This document shows, in pieces, positions 26,621-32,680 of a stretch of 64,000 bases of DNA. Both the position numbers and the translations under genes were made by a program. Below the pieces are notes generated by a model, which had not been told where the DNA came from, did no database searches, and saw only the letters and a program-made list of their open reading frames with translations. Source of the DNA: Saccharibacillus sacchari DSM 19268 (GTDB lineage Bacteria; Bacillota; Bacilli; Paenibacillales; Paenibacillaceae); NCBI RefSeq assembly GCF_000585395.1, contig NZ_KK073875.1:4388524-4452523 (forward strand), given 5' to 3'. The stretch's first letter is position 1. The number at the start of each line of letters is the position of its first letter.

Positions 26621-26681
26621 GCACGATTCCGAGCCGGTTTTCTTGTACCTAAGGTACTAGAAAACCGGCTCGGAATCGTGC
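26621..26681. promoter_or_regulatory. Very long perfect hairpin before the STM4015 operon
   Basis: GCACGATTCCGAGCCGGTTT and onward pair perfectly with the mirror arm for 23 bp (26621-26643 with 26659-26681). A T-T mismatch and a five-pair inner helix GTACC-TAA-GGTAC follow. There is no T-run on either side, so it is not a typical terminator for the upstream membrane-protein gene. Confidence 0.7.
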
Positions 26682-26790: not shown

Positions 26791-26839
26791 GTTTTTAGGA
26801 TTCCGATTCACCATTTCATCATTTTCAGGAGGGATTGAC

Positions 26840-27691
26840 ATGACGGAAATCAAACTTGAGATCGGTTACGAAGAGTATGAAAACGGGCAGAAAATGGAAA
26901 CTTTGATCGAAGAATTGGCAGAAAAGCCGGAAGCCGAACAGTTGTCGAGTCTGATTATCGGCAGTTGGGGCGGCGCTTACGAAGATTCTTCGGAGTCGAT
27001 CGCAGCCGAACTGGTGCGACTCAAGGATCGCTTCCCTGCGCTGCGCAGCCTGTTTATCGGCGATATGGATTCCGAAGAATGCGAAGTCTCGTGGATCATG
27101 CAATCGGATCTGAATCCCTTATTCGCGGCTTTCCCGGAACTCCGTTCGCTCACGATCAAGGGAAGCACCGATCTGGCTCTGGGCGAAGTCAAACATGCCA
27201 AACTTGAAGAACTAACCATCATCTGCGGAGGCCTCGGCAAAAGCGTGCTTGCTTCAATCGCCTCAGCCGAACTCCCGGCACTGAAAAAACTTGAACTGTA
27301 CATAGGCATAGACAATTACGGATTCGACGGAGACATCGAAGACGTCATGTCCGTAGCCAAGCCGGGACTTTTCCCGAATCTCGTTTACCTCGGACTGAAA
27401 GATAGCGAAATTCAGGACGAAATTGCCGCCGCTATCGCTCAATCCGATATTTTAGACAACTTGGAGACGCTTGACCTGTCCGAAGGAACGCTCAGCGACG
27501 AAGGCGCGGAAGCCCTGCTGGCCAGCGAGAAAGTTCGTCGTCTGCCGAAGCTCGATCTTCATTACCACTTCATGTCCGAAGCCATGACCCGTCGCGTTGC
27601 GACAGAGCTGCCCAACGCAGACGTAAGCGATCGTCAGGAAACGGAAAAGTACGACGGCGAGGAATATCGTTATCCCGCTTTGACGGAATGA
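26840..27691 (+). CDS. STM4015-family leucine-rich-repeat protein
   Basis: 283 residues built of irregular leucine-rich repeats of the ribonuclease-inhibitor type (for example PALRSLFIGD, PELRSLTIKG, AKLEELTIICGG, PNLVYLGLKDSEI, NLETLDLSEGTLSDEGAEALL), ending LDLHYHFMS. No signal peptide or catalytic motif. Such solenoids bind other proteins. It is the first gene of the operon and may present a substrate or hold the enzymes together (inference). SD AGGAGGG precedes the ATG at 26840. Its stop overlaps the next start (ATGA). Family name by recognition of the cluster. Confidence 0.82.
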   Translation: MTEIKLEIGYEEYENGQKMETLIEELAEKPEAEQLSSLIIGSWGGAYEDSSESIAAELVRLKDRFPALRSLFIGDMDSEECEVSWIMQSDLNPLFAAFPELRSLTIKGSTDLALGEVKHAKLEELTIICGGLGKSVLASIASAELPALKKLELYIGIDNYGFDGDIEDVMSVAKPGLFPNLVYLGLKDSEIQDEIAAAIAQSDILDNLETLDLSEGTLSDEGAEALLASEKVRRLPKLDLHYHFMSEAMTRRVATELPNADVSDRQETEKYDGEEYRYPALTE

Positions 27692-28980
27692 TCGTGCAGC
27701 ACGTCGAAAGTCCTTTTTCCCGATTTCCCGACGCCCGGCATACCCCGCTGCTCTTGATTGCCCATGCCGACGGAGAACGCACGGAAGGCCTGCGGCGGTC
27801 AAGATTGTCGTTGGGTCTGCCGGAGCCGATTATCGTTCCCTATGAGCAGCTGCTTGCAGGTATTCCTTTGCACGAAGCTGCCGAACGAGCCGGATTGCCG
27901 ACAGGGATCGCGCCGTTTATCCGACTCGATGCGCCCGGCGAACATTTCGGCGTCGAACGGGCGTTGATCGCGCTTGGATCGCCCCAACGCGATGACGGCG
28001 ATGCGCTGCTGCCTCTTCGGGAACGACGCGATCCGTATCGACTTTCCGAACAGGCGGCTTTGTCGTTGGGAGAACAGCCTGTACGATTGATGCACCCTTC
28101 CCAATGGTTTCGCGGCTTCTGCCGGTTGTTAGATCGGATTCGCACGGAAGCCGCGGAGGCATGGCCGCAGGTTCGATTCTGGCATGACCCGGCCGATATT
28201 GCGACGATGTTCGACAAGCGGGCTTGCCATCGTCGCCTGAGCGCGGCAGGCGTTAAGGTCCCTGCCTTGCTGGCAGAACCCGAGACGCTAACCGGATACG
28301 AAGCAGTGCGCGAAGCCATGTTCAACAAGCGGATGCACCGGGTATTTCTGAAGCTGGCTTTCGGTTCGGGAGCTTCCGGGATCATCGCTTACCAGATCAA
28401 TCCCCGAACCGGCGCCGAGATCGCAACCACTACGATGGGAGCCGAAGTCTACGTTCAGCGCCCCGGCATCTTTTACAATTCAAAAAAAGTCCGGTCGCTG
28501 ACCGACTCCGAGCAGATCCGTACGCTGATCGGCTACTTGTGCGGACATGGCGTTCACGCCGAACGTTGGATTCCCAAAGCTTCTCTGAACGGACGTCCGC
28601 TCGACCTTCGGCAGCTTGTCGCTTTTGGCGAAGCCGGGCATGCCGTCGTTCGGGTCGGCGAGAGTCCGATTACGAATCTTCATCTGCGCAGTCAACGAGT
28701 ATCTCCGGCTGAGTCGGGTTTGTCGCACGAAGCGCTAACGGCAGCAAAAAACGAAGCATTGGCCGTCATGCGTGCCTTCCCCGCCTCTTCTTCGGCCGGG
28801 ATCGACGTGCTGACGGATCGACAAACCGGACAGCCTTATATAGCGGACGTCAATCCGTTCGGCGATCTGCTTCGGCGGGTGCGTCATGAAGGACTCGATC
28901 CTTACGATTGGGAAATGAAACGATGGATGGAAGTCGGCGCGGATACGACGGGAAGCCTGCAAGGAGGAACGCAAGCATGA
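27688..28980 (+). CDS. STM4014-family ATP-grasp-like protein
   Basis: 430 residues. ATP-grasp features: RVFLKLAFGSGASGIIAY (lysine and glycine-rich loop, residues ~215-232), a central RQLVAFGEAGHAVVRVG strand pair, and the metal-binding DVNPFGDLL near the C terminus. ATP-grasp enzymes join carboxylates to amines or thiols through acyl-phosphates, so it is the candidate ligase. The N-terminal ~150 residues have no recognised motif. ATGA overlaps join it to both neighbours. The substrate is unknown. Confidence 0.82.
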   Translation: MIVQHVESPFSRFPDARHTPLLLIAHADGERTEGLRRSRLSLGLPEPIIVPYEQLLAGIPLHEAAERAGLPTGIAPFIRLDAPGEHFGVERALIALGSPQRDDGDALLPLRERRDPYRLSEQAALSLGEQPVRLMHPSQWFRGFCRLLDRIRTEAAEAWPQVRFWHDPADIATMFDKRACHRRLSAAGVKVPALLAEPETLTGYEAVREAMFNKRMHRVFLKLAFGSGASGIIAYQINPRTGAEIATTTMGAEVYVQRPGIFYNSKKVRSLTDSEQIRTLIGYLCGHGVHAERWIPKASLNGRPLDLRQLVAFGEAGHAVVRVGESPITNLHLRSQRVSPAESGLSHEALTAAKNEALAVMRAFPASSSAGIDVLTDRQTGQPYIADVNPFGDLLRRVRHEGLDPYDWEMKRWMEVGADTTGSLQGGTQA

Positions 28981-29780
28981 CCCTTGAAAAAAGTTCGGTC
29001 GACATGAACAAAGTCGTCGGGACGCACGATATTTTAATGATTACGCTGGACACGTTGCGCTTTGACGCAGCACTGCTTGAGCAAGACAACTGCCCGAACC
29101 TATGCGGCAGCGGTCCTTGGGAAAAACGACATTCGCCGGGCAGCTTTACCTATGCGGCGCATCATGCTTTTTTCGGCGGCTTTTTGCCGACGCCGGCCAA
29201 TACCGATAAGTCGTCGCATGTTCGCTTGTTTCATTCCCGGGGCACCGGACTGAAGACGCATCCGCATACGTGGCTGTTCGATACGCCGGATATCGTCTCG
29301 GGGCTTGCCGCGGAGGGGTATCGGACGCTTTGCATCGGCGGCGTTATCTTTTTCACGAAAAAAGTACCGCTCGCCCGCGTGCTGCCCGGTTATTTCCAGC
29401 GCAGCTTTTGGCGGATGAACTTCGGCGTCACCAATCCGCAGTCCACGAAAAACCAGGTGGATCATGCGCTGAAATTGCTGGCCGACATTCCGACGAACGA
29501 ACGTTTCTTTTTGTTTATCAACGTCTCCGCCATTCACGGGCCCAACCATATGTTTCTTCCCGGTGCCAAACGCGATTCGGTCGACAGTCAACGGGCCGCG
29601 CTTCGTTATGTGGATGCCGAGCTGGGTCGATTGTTCGATGCGGTTCGGGCCCGAAATAATCCCGCGTTCTGCATGGCTTTCTCCGACCACGGAACGGCTT
29701 ACGGCGAAGATGGGTATGAAGGGCATCGTCTGGCGCATGAGACGGTTTGGAACGTCCCTTACCGGGAATTTATGCTGTAA
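28977..29780 (+). CDS. STM4013/SEN3800-family alkaline-phosphatase-fold hydrolase
   Basis: 267 residues with the alkaline phosphatase/sulfatase superfamily layout: the N-terminal metal site in ILMITLDTLRFDAA, a central LFINVSAIHGPNH block, and the second metal site in AFSDHGTAYGEDGYEGHR. The position equivalent to the nucleophile appears to be the threonine or serine region after the first aspartate (inference). No signal peptide, so cytosolic, unlike most phosphatases and sulfatases. SD AAGGAGGAA; the ATG at 28977 overlaps the STM4014 stop. Confidence 0.83.
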   Translation: MTLEKSSVDMNKVVGTHDILMITLDTLRFDAALLEQDNCPNLCGSGPWEKRHSPGSFTYAAHHAFFGGFLPTPANTDKSSHVRLFHSRGTGLKTHPHTWLFDTPDIVSGLAAEGYRTLCIGGVIFFTKKVPLARVLPGYFQRSFWRMNFGVTNPQSTKNQVDHALKLLADIPTNERFFLFINVSAIHGPNHMFLPGAKRDSVDSQRAALRYVDAELGRLFDAVRARNNPAFCMAFSDHGTAYGEDGYEGHRLAHETVWNVPYREFML

Positions 29781-29799
29781 AAGAAAAGGAGCGATTACC

Positions 29800-31164
29800 A
29801 TGACCGAAACGGCCGTCTACGATATCGAGCAGGTCCGGGCCTGGAAACGGGAACTGGACGCCGCTCCTTACCGTTCGTATCTCTATTCTTACCCGCACAA
29901 GACCGCGTACCGCCCGTTCGAAAAACCGAAGCCGTTGTCCGAACTGTGGCAGGACGAACCCGCGGAAAGCTTTTTCCTCTATATGCATATCCCCTTCTGC
30001 GGGGCGCGCTGCGGATTCTGTAATCTGTTTACCCTGCCGGATAAACGCGAGGACGTGCATAAGCGATACGTCGACGCGCTCGAACGCCAAGCCAAGCAAT
30101 GGGCAGGTCTTGTTTCGCGTCCTTTTGCGCGGTTCGCGATCGGGGGCGGCACGCCGACGCTGCTGCGGGCCGATCAACTGAGCCGACTGTTCGACATCGC
30201 GGAAGATATCATGGGGCTGGACCCCTCCGCGGCTTCGATCTCCGTAGAAACTTCGCCGGAAACGGTTGATCCGCAGCGGCTGCGCATCCTAAAGGAACGG
30301 GGAACCGATCGCGTGAGCATGGGCATTCAAAGTTTTATCGAAGCCGAAGCGGCCGCGATCTATCGTCCCCAAAAGCCGGACGAAGTTCGCAGAGCTTTGG
30401 ATCTGTTGCAGCGCTTTGAATTTCCTTTGCTCAATCTGGATCTGATCTATGGCCTGCCGGGGCAGACGTTGGAGACTTGGCTCTACTCGCTGGAACAAGC
30501 ATTGAGCTACGAGCCTGGCGAAATTTTCCTCTACCCGCTCTATACGCGGGAGCATACGATCCTCAAGCCCGGCGACGTACAAGGCGGAGGACCCGAAGAC
30601 CTGCGCATGGACATGTACTTGGCTGCCTGCAAACGACTGGAAGAGCGCGGTTACGAACAATTTTCGATGCGGCGTTTTGCCCGCAAAAATACGGTCGGCC
30701 ATGATCCGTCCAAGCGACCACTTGCTTATGGCTGTCAGGAAGAAGGCATGATGGGGCTTGGCTGCGGCGCCCGTTCATATACGCAGCACGTACACTATGC
30801 TTCTCGATACGGAGTGAGTCGTAAAGCGACCGAGAGCATCATTGCCGATTACGTGGCCGCGGAGCGTTATGATCATGCGGATTACGGCTTCGAGTTGAAT
30901 ATCGAAGAGCGTAAGCGGCGCTTCGTGCTCAAAGGCATCCTGCACAGCGAGGGGCTTCCGCTCGAAGAGTATGCGCGTCGTTTCGGCAGTGATGCGTTCA
31001 GCGACCTGCCGCAATTGCATTTGCTGACGGAATCCGGATTGGCTGCGATTGAAGAAGGCATTCTGCGGATGGGACGCGAAGGTCTCGGTTATTCGGATGC
31101 CATCGGCGACTGGTTGATTTCCGAACCGGTTCGCAATCAGATGCATGAGTTTGTGCTGCCATGA
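29800..31164 (+). CDS. STM4012-family radical SAM protein (HemW-like)
   Basis: 454 residues. The radical SAM cluster motif is CGARCGFC (CxxxCxxC) in MHIPFCGARCGFCNLFTLP, about residues 67-74. The SAM-binding GGGTPT and ETSPET motifs follow, together with RVSMGIQSF, DLIYGLPGQT and the HemN_C-like C-terminal region with MMGLGCGARSY. The fold is that of coproporphyrinogen oxidase/HemW, but the operon context argues for a dedicated substrate. SD AAAAGGAG; 19 nt after STM4013. Its stop overlaps STM4011 (ATGA). Confidence 0.88.
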   Translation: MTETAVYDIEQVRAWKRELDAAPYRSYLYSYPHKTAYRPFEKPKPLSELWQDEPAESFFLYMHIPFCGARCGFCNLFTLPDKREDVHKRYVDALERQAKQWAGLVSRPFARFAIGGGTPTLLRADQLSRLFDIAEDIMGLDPSAASISVETSPETVDPQRLRILKERGTDRVSMGIQSFIEAEAAAIYRPQKPDEVRRALDLLQRFEFPLLNLDLIYGLPGQTLETWLYSLEQALSYEPGEIFLYPLYTREHTILKPGDVQGGGPEDLRMDMYLAACKRLEERGYEQFSMRRFARKNTVGHDPSKRPLAYGCQEEGMMGLGCGARSYTQHVHYASRYGVSRKATESIIADYVAAERYDHADYGFELNIEERKRRFVLKGILHSEGLPLEEYARRFGSDAFSDLPQLHLLTESGLAAIEEGILRMGREGLGYSDAIGDWLISEPVRNQMHEFVLP

Positions 31165-32051
31165 AGGCGACTCTTTATTTCCGCGGCTCTTTGTCGTCCT
31201 GCAACTACTCTTGTCCGTATTGTCCGTTCAGCAAAACCACAGACAGTACCGAGACCTTGGCCAAAGATCGGCGTCAGGTGGAAAAGTTCGTCGAATGGGC
31301 CGCTATGCAGGAAAAGTCGGGGCATCGACTCTCTATCTTTTTCAACCCCTACGGCGAAGGACTCGTTCATGCTTGGTATCGGGACGCGATCATTGCCCTT
31401 TCCCATATGCCGCATATCGATCGGGTCGCGATTCAAACCAATCTTTCCGCCAAGCTGGATTGGACGGATCGGTTGAATCGGGATACCGCAGCGTTCTGGG
31501 CTACCTATCATCCGGGCGAAGTCAGCGAAGAACGATTTCTCGCGCGCTGCCTTGACCTGCATCGGCGCGGCATCAAGTTCAGCGTCGGAAGCGTGGGCGT
31601 CCGCAGCGCATTCGAGCGCATCGATTCGCTGCGGCGCGCACTGCCGGAAGATGTCTATCTGTGGATCAACGCGTTCAAAGATCGCAAAAATTACTATGAA
31701 GAACATGAGATTCAGCGCCTGCGCGCAATCGATCCGTTATTCGAGTTGAACCTGCCCGATTACGCAAGTCTCGGACAATCGTGCCGAACCGGAGAAACCG
31801 TGTTTTTCGTTCAGGGGCCCGGGATCGTCAAACGCTGCTACAGTGATCGGCGCGTGATCGGCCATTTGTATCGGGAAGGTCTCGAAGGCTTGTCGCAGCA
31901 GAGAGCTTGCGGAATGAAAAGCTGCGGCTGCTATATCGGTTACGTGCATATGCCGGAGTTGAATATGGAGAGCCATTACGGAGACGGTCTGCTTGAACGG
32001 CGCGGGTTGCGGGAACAATTCGTCACGGCTTATTCGGGAGGTCGACCATGA
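31161..32051 (+). CDS. STM4011-family radical SAM protein
   Basis: 296 residues. The N-terminal cluster motif CNYSCPYC (CxxxCxxC) is at about residues 14-21. A barrel region follows with IFFNPYGEGLVH, VAIQTNLSAKLDW and FWATYHPGEVS. C-terminal cysteines in VKRCYSDRR and ACGMKSCGCYIGY could bind an auxiliary iron-sulfur cluster or zinc (inference). That layout resembles SPASM/twitch-type modifiers of peptides or small molecules. ATGA overlaps on both sides couple it to STM4012 and the APS kinase. Confidence 0.85.
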   Translation: MKATLYFRGSLSSCNYSCPYCPFSKTTDSTETLAKDRRQVEKFVEWAAMQEKSGHRLSIFFNPYGEGLVHAWYRDAIIALSHMPHIDRVAIQTNLSAKLDWTDRLNRDTAAFWATYHPGEVSEERFLARCLDLHRRGIKFSVGSVGVRSAFERIDSLRRALPEDVYLWINAFKDRKNYYEEHEIQRLRAIDPLFELNLPDYASLGQSCRTGETVFFVQGPGIVKRCYSDRRVIGHLYREGLEGLSQQRACGMKSCGCYIGYVHMPELNMESHYGDGLLERRGLREQFVTAYSGGRP

Positions 32052-32629
32052 CTGATTTTGATGCGACAAAAGCAGGCCGCACGTTCTGGCTGACCGGGCT
32101 GCCGTGTTCCGGCAAAACGACGACAGCGATTGCTTTTGCCGACGCACTGGCAGAGCGCGGAGCAGCGGTCGAAATCCTCGACGGGGACGAGCTTCGTCGC
32201 CGGATCGGCGGCGGACTGGGCTTCAGTCAGGAAGACCGCATGGAAAATGTGCGCCGAGCCGTCTATCTCTCAGGGCTGCTGAACAAACACGGCGTGACCA
32301 CGATCGTCTCGTTGATCAGCCCTTATGCCGAAATGCGCAACTATGCCCGCTCCGAGCTTTCGCGATTTGTCGAAGTCTATATCGAGTGTCCGCTCGAAGA
32401 ATGTGAGCGCCGGGATGTCAAAGGCATGTACGCGTTGGCACGCCAAGGCAAAATCACCTCCTTTACAGGAGTATCCGATGTGTACGAAGCCCCTGTATCT
32501 CCAGAGTTGACGCTTCGTACCGACCAAGATTCCGTACATGAGAACGTAGCGAAATTGTTGGAATTTTTCGATCAAGATCCATTTACGGCGCATATTCATA
32601 CGGAATCGATACTTTCTTTGCCCAAGTAA
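32048..32629 (+). CDS. cysC: Adenylylsulfate (APS) kinase-family protein
   Basis: 193 residues, P-loop kinase. Seen: Walker A GLPCSGKTT, the APS-kinase signature ILDGDELRRRI then GLGFSQEDRMENVRRA, SLISPYAEMR, VEVYIECPLEECERRDVKGMY and KITSFTGVSDVYEAP. All canonical elements are present, so it should phosphorylate APS to PAPS or a related adenylylated substrate. It is the last gene of the operon (ATGA overlap with STM4011) and is not accompanied by ATP sulfurylase, so a role in the operon's own pathway rather than sulfate assimilation is likely (inference). Confidence 0.88.
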   Translation: MTDFDATKAGRTFWLTGLPCSGKTTTAIAFADALAERGAAVEILDGDELRRRIGGGLGFSQEDRMENVRRAVYLSGLLNKHGVTTIVSLISPYAEMRNYARSELSRFVEVYIECPLEECERRDVKGMYALARQGKITSFTGVSDVYEAPVSPELTLRTDQDSVHENVAKLLEFFDQDPFTAHIHTESILSLPK

Positions 32630-32647: not shown

Positions 32648-32680
32648 AACCCGGACATTCTGATGTCCGGGTTCTTCTGT
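32648..32680 (+). terminator. Terminator of the STM4015-cysC operon
   Basis: AACCCGGACAT-TCTG-ATGTCCGGGTT, 11 perfect pairs, followed by CTTCTGTT. Confidence 0.85.

Follow-up and report, generated by a model that had tools for sequence, protein, structure and literature searches.

What do the six genes at 26840-32629 of this DNA make together, and which of them form a unit that is conserved elsewhere? The window (the whole stretch analysed, 64,000 nt of Saccharibacillus sacchari DSM 19268, NZ_KK073875.1, from a genome that is one 6.08-Mb contig) contains here six open frames, all on the + strand, which an earlier note had read as an operon of STM4011-STM4015 family genes and an adenosine 5'-phosphosulfate (APS) kinase gene. 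The starts and stops, the ATGA overlaps (27688, 28977, 31161 and 32048) and the single 19-nt gap (29781-29799, between STM4013 and STM4012) were borne out by the frames and coordinates, and joint production of the six proteins is supported, as the genes are probably one transcription unit. The family assignments also held, all five proteins scoring over the curated NCBIfam cut-offs (score/cut-off: STM4015 NF038076, 358/275; STM4014 NF038074, 388/175; STM4013 NF038075, 389/250; STM4012 NF006067, 579/380; STM4011 NF038073, 397/200); the sixth protein matched TIGR00455 (apsK, 193/138.7). The NCBIfam entries for STM4011, STM4012, STM4013/SEN3800, STM4014 and STM4015, among which the APS kinase does not figure, assign no function, and, in agreement with the note, none was found by family name or enzyme combination in the limited literature searched. 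In the excerpts consulted, STM4013 appears as one entry in a table of sigma-54 binding sites (PMC3844500) and STM4015 in one selection study (PMC2784778). A PADLOC search for anti-phage defence returned only PDC-M51A for STM4012 (36.8 bits, partial profile) and mad8 for the kinase (22.8 bits).

We propose, by analogy and with a rough probability of 0.5, that STM4014 attaches a group to the terminal Glu of the leucine-rich-repeat (LRR) protein STM4015 and that radical and phosphate chemistry follow. In this way LysX charges the C-terminal Glu of its carrier protein with amino acids. What is new here is the terminal Glu of STM4015, the LysX/ArgX/RimK-like character of STM4014, the Thr-type STM4013, and the SPASM/twitch-like domain and haloacid dehalogenase (HAD) fusion of STM4011.

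Genome neighbourhoods, by which the note had suggested that the minimal conserved set be delimited, gave five genes: the core is a widespread five-gene cassette and the APS kinase is accessory. The best 80 of 543 confirmed STM4013 relatives from a scan of genome contigs were combined with eight plasmid loci, drawn from 26 plasmid records with an STM4013 match, and family membership in these 88 loci was judged with profiles built in this analysis. All five families lay within the fetched stretch in 75 loci, 63 of them in the order 4015-4014-4013-4012-4011, which is also that of the window. By record labels the complete loci cover at least eight phyla (Bacillota, Actinomycetota, Deinococcota, Pseudomonadota, Planctomycetota, Myxococcota, Cyanobacteriota and Chloroflexota), and hosts include gut Lachnospiraceae, Streptomyces, Deinococcus and Salmonella; further complete loci L055 and L066 carry an unchecked Bacteroidota label, and the Verrucomicrobiota locus L102 has four of the five families. 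Among the 13 incomplete loci are short contigs, cassettes that have been split and loci with only STM4013 (L028, L030, L076, L089). Instead of homologues scattered singly, which the note had named as evidence against its grouping, we found strong linkage over many phyla. STM4015 and STM4014 were kept together on the strand opposite to 4013-4012-4011 in four loci (L066, L088, L092, L109), and single open frames fuse 4014 to 4013 in L037 and 4013 to 4012 in L075, both metagenome assemblies. Pairwise distances were correlated for all ten family pairs (r 0.50-0.85; 25 thinned loci of 66), with a Mantel result of 0/2000 for the three pairs tested. Distribution is patchy, STM4013 exceeding its cut-off in 8 of 398 genomes of the window's phylum and STM4011 in 73 of 197 genomes of its family, Paenibacillaceae.

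The earlier note had suggested that the LRR protein (Pfam LRR_6 over cut-off) might be a scaffold or the modified partner, and there is now specific evidence for such a part in its terminal Glu and in the LysX/RimK-like ligase. When copies were aligned from the C-terminus, a variable acidic linker was followed by a short conserved tail and the stop. All 88 copies that reached 240 aa and 150 bits, that of the window included, had Glu as their last residue, while position -2 was Thr in 70 and position -3 Leu in 64; only the last Glu is invariant in the tail, and the last residue is not comparably fixed in STM4014, STM4013, STM4012 or STM4011. The last STM4015 codon could be under constraint from its ATGA overlap with the start of STM4014. 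A recount of 89 copies outside the window, with no length filter, found the overlap sequence present in 33 and absent in 56, with both Glu codons and all three stop codons in use. Glu283 of the window protein is the putative attachment point. Two or three STM4015 copies per cassette were seen in L026, L027, L084, L086, L092 and L093, each readable copy ending in Glu.

STM4014 has an ATP-grasp fold with intact catalytic residues; K177, K222, E292, D306, R308, R322, D373 and N389 are invariant, and the AlphaFold2 (AF2) model has a mean predicted local distance difference test (pLDDT) score of 92.2. Profile and model comparisons place it apparently nearest to LysX/ArgX and RimK with other ATP-grasp classes close in score, inositol-pyrophosphate kinases and D-Ala ligase among them. 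The top VIA-align row was RimK 7qys, rows within 1 Z being counted as tied.

For STM4013, the earlier description as a sulfatase-fold protein (Pfam Sulfatase over cut-off, Phosphodiest just under) needs refinement. Thr58, followed in the window protein by Y-A-A-H, is invariant in 94 of 94 aligned sequences, and by motif reading it sits where sulfatases have formylglycine, the Cys/Ser precursor being absent. Because of this invariant Thr at the nucleophile position, STM4013 would by inference be a phosphate-type enzyme and not a sulfatase; a region of it aligned to the nucleotide pyrophosphatase/phosphodiesterase 2gsn. Anaerobic sulfatase maturation, with STM4011 acting on STM4013, is ruled out by the same residue. 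Two of the loci with STM4013 alone are worth recording. On a Streptomyces albidoflavus plasmid (L028, 7768-9931) a 43% identical homologue without other cassette genes is followed by NUDIX and lasso-peptide B2 genes, and is perhaps a lasso-peptide tailoring enzyme. On an Agrobacterium Ti plasmid (L030, 7001-13007) a distant relative shares a gene group with a transporter, a homologue of GTP cyclohydrolase II and, missing from the listed annotation, an APS-kinase-like frame; the group looks like an undescribed biosynthetic cluster.

Both radical S-adenosylmethionine (SAM) proteins have the CxxxCxxC motif that the note had reported, and it is invariant in 89 STM4012 and 80 STM4011 aligned sequences. 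STM4012, with C67, C71 and C74 invariant, matches HemN (1olt) and NocN (9p2u). In STM4011 (AF2 model, mean pLDDT 91.3) C14, C18, C21, C208, C226, C255 and C257 are invariant and C250 nearly so. SPASM/twitch enzymes combine CxxxCxxC with C-X9-15-G-X4-C in the C-terminal domain, and STM4011 has C208-X12-G221-X4-C226 besides C14/C18/C21. In place of the full second SPASM cysteine motif there is only the shorter C250-X4-C255-X-C257, and Pfam SPASM scored in a relative (L058), not in the window protein. STM4011 is described here as having a predicted SPASM/twitch-like domain. Of its 79 copies, 41 carry a fused HAD phosphatase.

In the proposed pathway, STM4015 would be an LRR carrier whose acidic C-terminal tail presents the terminal Glu, and STM4014 would activate a carboxylate of this residue with ATP and join an amine-bearing group to it. 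The tethered group would be remodelled by STM4011, with its auxiliary iron-sulfur domain, and by the HemN-like STM4012, while STM4013 would handle phosphate ester or anhydride chemistry. The HAD phosphatase fused to or beside STM4011 in other lineages would share in the phosphate chemistry, and some members of the window's family would add the APS-kinase-like kinase. We infer the attachment, the action of the enzymes on a tethered group, the identity of that group and the release or retention of the product.

The LRR protein might instead be the end product, its C-terminus modified like the precursor of a ribosomally synthesised and post-translationally modified peptide (RiPP) or like a protein-derived cofactor, and act in the cell; STM4014 would make the linkage, and STM4011 and STM4012 would crosslink, decarboxylate or methylate. 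The conservation of the tail, the lack of a transporter regularly adjoining the cassette and the resemblance of STM4014 in Foldseek to the graspetide ligase PsnB are in keeping with this, as are the folds nearest to STM4011, which include, after BlsE, the RiPP maturases SkfB, SuiB, EpeE and PqqE, SkfB being also its best sequence-profile match (E 0.004). We nevertheless think it somewhat unlikely, since possible crosslink partners in the tail (Tyr, Thr) vary where the last Glu does not, and peptide crosslinking leaves the phosphatase-fold enzyme, the HAD phosphatase and the kinase unexplained. A free small-molecule pathway, probably nucleotide- or sugar-phosphate-derived, with STM4015 as docking scaffold and its tail as binding motif only, is an unlikely account, because a docking motif would not require every copy to keep a free Glu at its C-terminus when the other positions of the tail vary. 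It draws on the resemblance of STM4011 to the nucleotide and sugar enzymes viperin, BlsE and DesII, from which STM4011 may act on a free small molecule. STM4011 was not classed as viperin, which gave the first Foldseek rows and a weak NCBIfam match (15.4 bits vs a cut-off of 180), given its extra conserved C-terminal cysteines. That STM4014 is RimK-like and only marks STM4015 for regulation with a chain of Glu or other amino acids, the remaining enzymes doing something separate, is very improbable: RimK is among its best structural matches and, in the part of PMC4741518 consulted, extends a protein C-terminus, but two fusions and five-gene co-inheritance tie the ligase to the other enzymes.

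Besides the small-molecule resemblances of STM4011, several points weigh against loading of STM4015 by STM4014. The LysX/RimK sequence match is weak (profile vs PDB, E 0.004-0.008 over the whole chain), and no single LysX/RimK stretch passes alone, unlike one in inositol-tetrakisphosphate kinase. In VIA-align, Asp1 kinase (21.2), PurK (21.0) and glutathione synthetase (21.0) come shortly after RimK and ArgX, and the Foldseek E-values of PPIP5K2 kinases and ArgX are nearly equal. The search for STM4014 found none in L084, where a short contig bears three copies of STM4015, or within 10 kb in L102. No peptidase able to free a product was identified as a recurrent neighbour among the 30 most widespread of 121 clusters of neighbouring open reading frames (ORFs); one rarer cluster, in four loci, is peptidase-like by eye. 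When the STM4015 model was searched in 22 genomes, the short flanks of four matches lacked any other cassette gene; of these matches L132 has the Glu tail and L134, L138 and L139 do not. This control is weak, because L134 is perhaps a decayed copy and L138 and L139 are low-scoring matches of a general LRR kind.

The place of the APS kinase as a core member, which the earlier note had given it, did not survive. It is not core because an APS-kinase-like gene follows STM4011 on the same strand in only 27 of 71 loci examined of the window's family, and because no APS kinase match (threshold E 1e-10) turned up in 17 of the 50 genomes with STM4013 or the cassette, some of which are incomplete assemblies. 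Those 17, which include Hungatella effluvii DSM 24995 and Clostridium senegalense, also rule out, as a general rule, a dependence of the whole pathway on 3'-phosphoadenosine 5'-phosphosulfate (PAPS); seven of the 50 are Paenibacillus, all with a match, and many others are incomplete assemblies.

The window kinase, over the TIGR00455 cut-off, has its P-loop and DGD motif. In the kinase tree 26 of 27 linked copies form one branch, L162 lying among canonical kinases; after 20 weaker-scoring homologues were added the bootstrap had not settled. Compared with 44 high-scoring unlinked APS kinases, the linked branch has changed at three near-fixed positions, N54->G, E73->Y and D96->M (window numbering; Asn54, Glu73 and Asp96 occur in 43, 44 and 41 of the 44), and the window kinase, with Gly54, Tyr73 and Met96, departs from the canonical CysC residues. 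A kinase type unique to the cassette, an idea that came from a tree holding only the strongest unlinked homologues, is ruled out, as 18 of the 20 weaker-scoring paralogues share Tyr73 and 19 share Met96. In the window's family, 14 of the 20 loci examined for these paralogues (L272-L274, L276-L278, L280-L282, L284-L288) have the gene between a Gfo/Idh oxidoreductase gene and another sulfatase-fold gene whose matching motif also has Thr, an arrangement that none of the 44 canonical loci shows; the kinase subfamily therefore accompanies Thr-type phosphatase-fold enzymes in two settings.

It is a tentative possibility that the locus encodes a widespread, unrecognised LRR carrier pathway to a new metabolite or protein-bound cofactor, and that in the window's family the substrate of the diverged kinase is a phosphorylated or nucleotide-linked intermediate, either in place of APS or in addition to it. 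Against a new substrate, the window kinase is the sole match above the apsK cut-off in its genome, and ATP sulfurylase is present. Within Saccharibacillus, the linked kinase occurs in seven genomes and an unlinked one in another seven, never both together, and the two genomes without either also lack STM4011; this pattern fits an ordinary PAPS-making role at least as well. In the family (197 genomes), all 75 genomes with an STM4011 match (broken or partial in three) also match APS kinase, as do 63 of the 122 that have no STM4011 match (Fisher one-sided p 3e-16, not corrected for kinship).

Coordinates are collected in the table. A ribosome-binding-like AGGAGGG lies at 26827-26833, 6 bases ahead of the first ATG. 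The hairpin after apsK, whose tail contains T, is only suggestive, because the terminator pattern scan found 7 sites against a shuffle mean of 8.3 and on its own proves nothing.

Table. Features of the STM4015-STM4011 locus and its accessory kinase gene (window coordinates)
Feature	Position	Strand	Evidence
STM4015-family leucine-rich-repeat protein, 283 aa, proposed carrier/substrate	26840..27691	+	NF038076, LRR_6, terminal Glu
Acidic linker codons, variable, residues 264-275, ahead of tail	27629..27664	+	sequence, aligned tails
Conserved C-terminal tail codons YRYPALTE; final Glu283 the proposed attachment point	27665..27688	+	column statistics, codon/stop control
STM4014-family ATP-grasp ligase, LysX/ArgX/RimK-like, 430 aa	27688..28980	+	NF038074, profile vs PDB, AF2 model, Foldseek, VIA-align
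STM4013-family alkaline-phosphatase-superfamily enzyme, Thr58 at nucleophile position	28977..29780	+	NF038075, Pfam Sulfatase
STM4012-family HemN-like radical SAM enzyme	29800..31164	+	NF006067, 1olt/9p2u matches, C67 C71 C74
STM4011-family radical SAM enzyme, SPASM/twitch-like C-terminal cysteines	31161..32051	+	NF038073, conserved cysteines, AF2 model, fold matches
APS-kinase-like protein, subfamily with Y73 and M96, accessory	32048..32629	+	TIGR00455, tree, diagnostic residues, linkage
Terminator-like hairpin, may end operon after apsK	32648..32673	+	pattern scan, fold z -4.5

Between the upstream membrane-protein gene and STM4015, a near-perfect inverted repeat at 26621-26681 (23 pairs and 5 more round the loop; RNA fold z -10.6) is a single site in the genome. 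Clustering of 1000 neighbouring ORFs gave no further regular gene among the 30 clusters inspected. The widest, response-regulator and ABC-ATPase, reached 17 of 88 loci each, followed by multidrug and toxic compound extrusion (MATE) proteins in 10, mostly more than 300 nt off. On the same strand and within 300 nt of a cassette gene there was an ABC ATPase in three loci (L045, L094, L095) and a MATE protein in two (L032, L081), possible exporters in a minority of lineages. A DUF6745 protein and a small protein of about 100 aa lie near the cassette in L024-L027, L105 and L109 (Streptomyces, Methylobacterium, Deinococcus, Chloroflexota, Planctomycetota).

The cassette occurs in at least eight phyla, yet the limited literature searched gave no function for it. 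If the proposal is true, a protein's C-terminal amino acid serving as a handle for radical chemistry would be a new use. A group found on the Glu would mean a carrier-protein pathway on an LRR fold that draws on radical SAM chemistry, and a set of hypothetical families could then be studied directly.

Three known systems can be compared. In the Pearlin pathways, as described in the excerpt of PMC9303977 consulted, a group is built at the C-terminus of an encoded carrier with radical SAM steps, as is proposed here; loading would here be by an ATP-grasp enzyme and not by a peptide aminoacyl-tRNA ligase (PEARL), in a five-gene set without peptidase or transporter. RimK and ribosomal protein S6 (RpsF) share with the proposal an ATP-grasp enzyme that modifies a protein C-terminus, whereas the partner here is an LRR protein within a multi-enzyme cassette. 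LysW with LysX/ArgX shares a carrier that ends in Glu and an adjoining ATP-grasp ligase of similar fold. STM4015 is a 283-aa LRR protein and LysW a 54-residue small zinc-binding carrier, and radical SAM and phosphatase-fold enzymes stand where the lysine/arginine set has LysZ, Y, J and K. The LysW C-terminal motif is EDWGE (PMC10433800, excerpt), and its absence from the STM4015 tail (YRYPALTE in the window, other sequences elsewhere) also counts against our proposal. Since EDWGE and the small carrier are absent, the cassette is not a member of the LysW system; by analogy, it would work like a carrier-protein or C-terminal-modification system.

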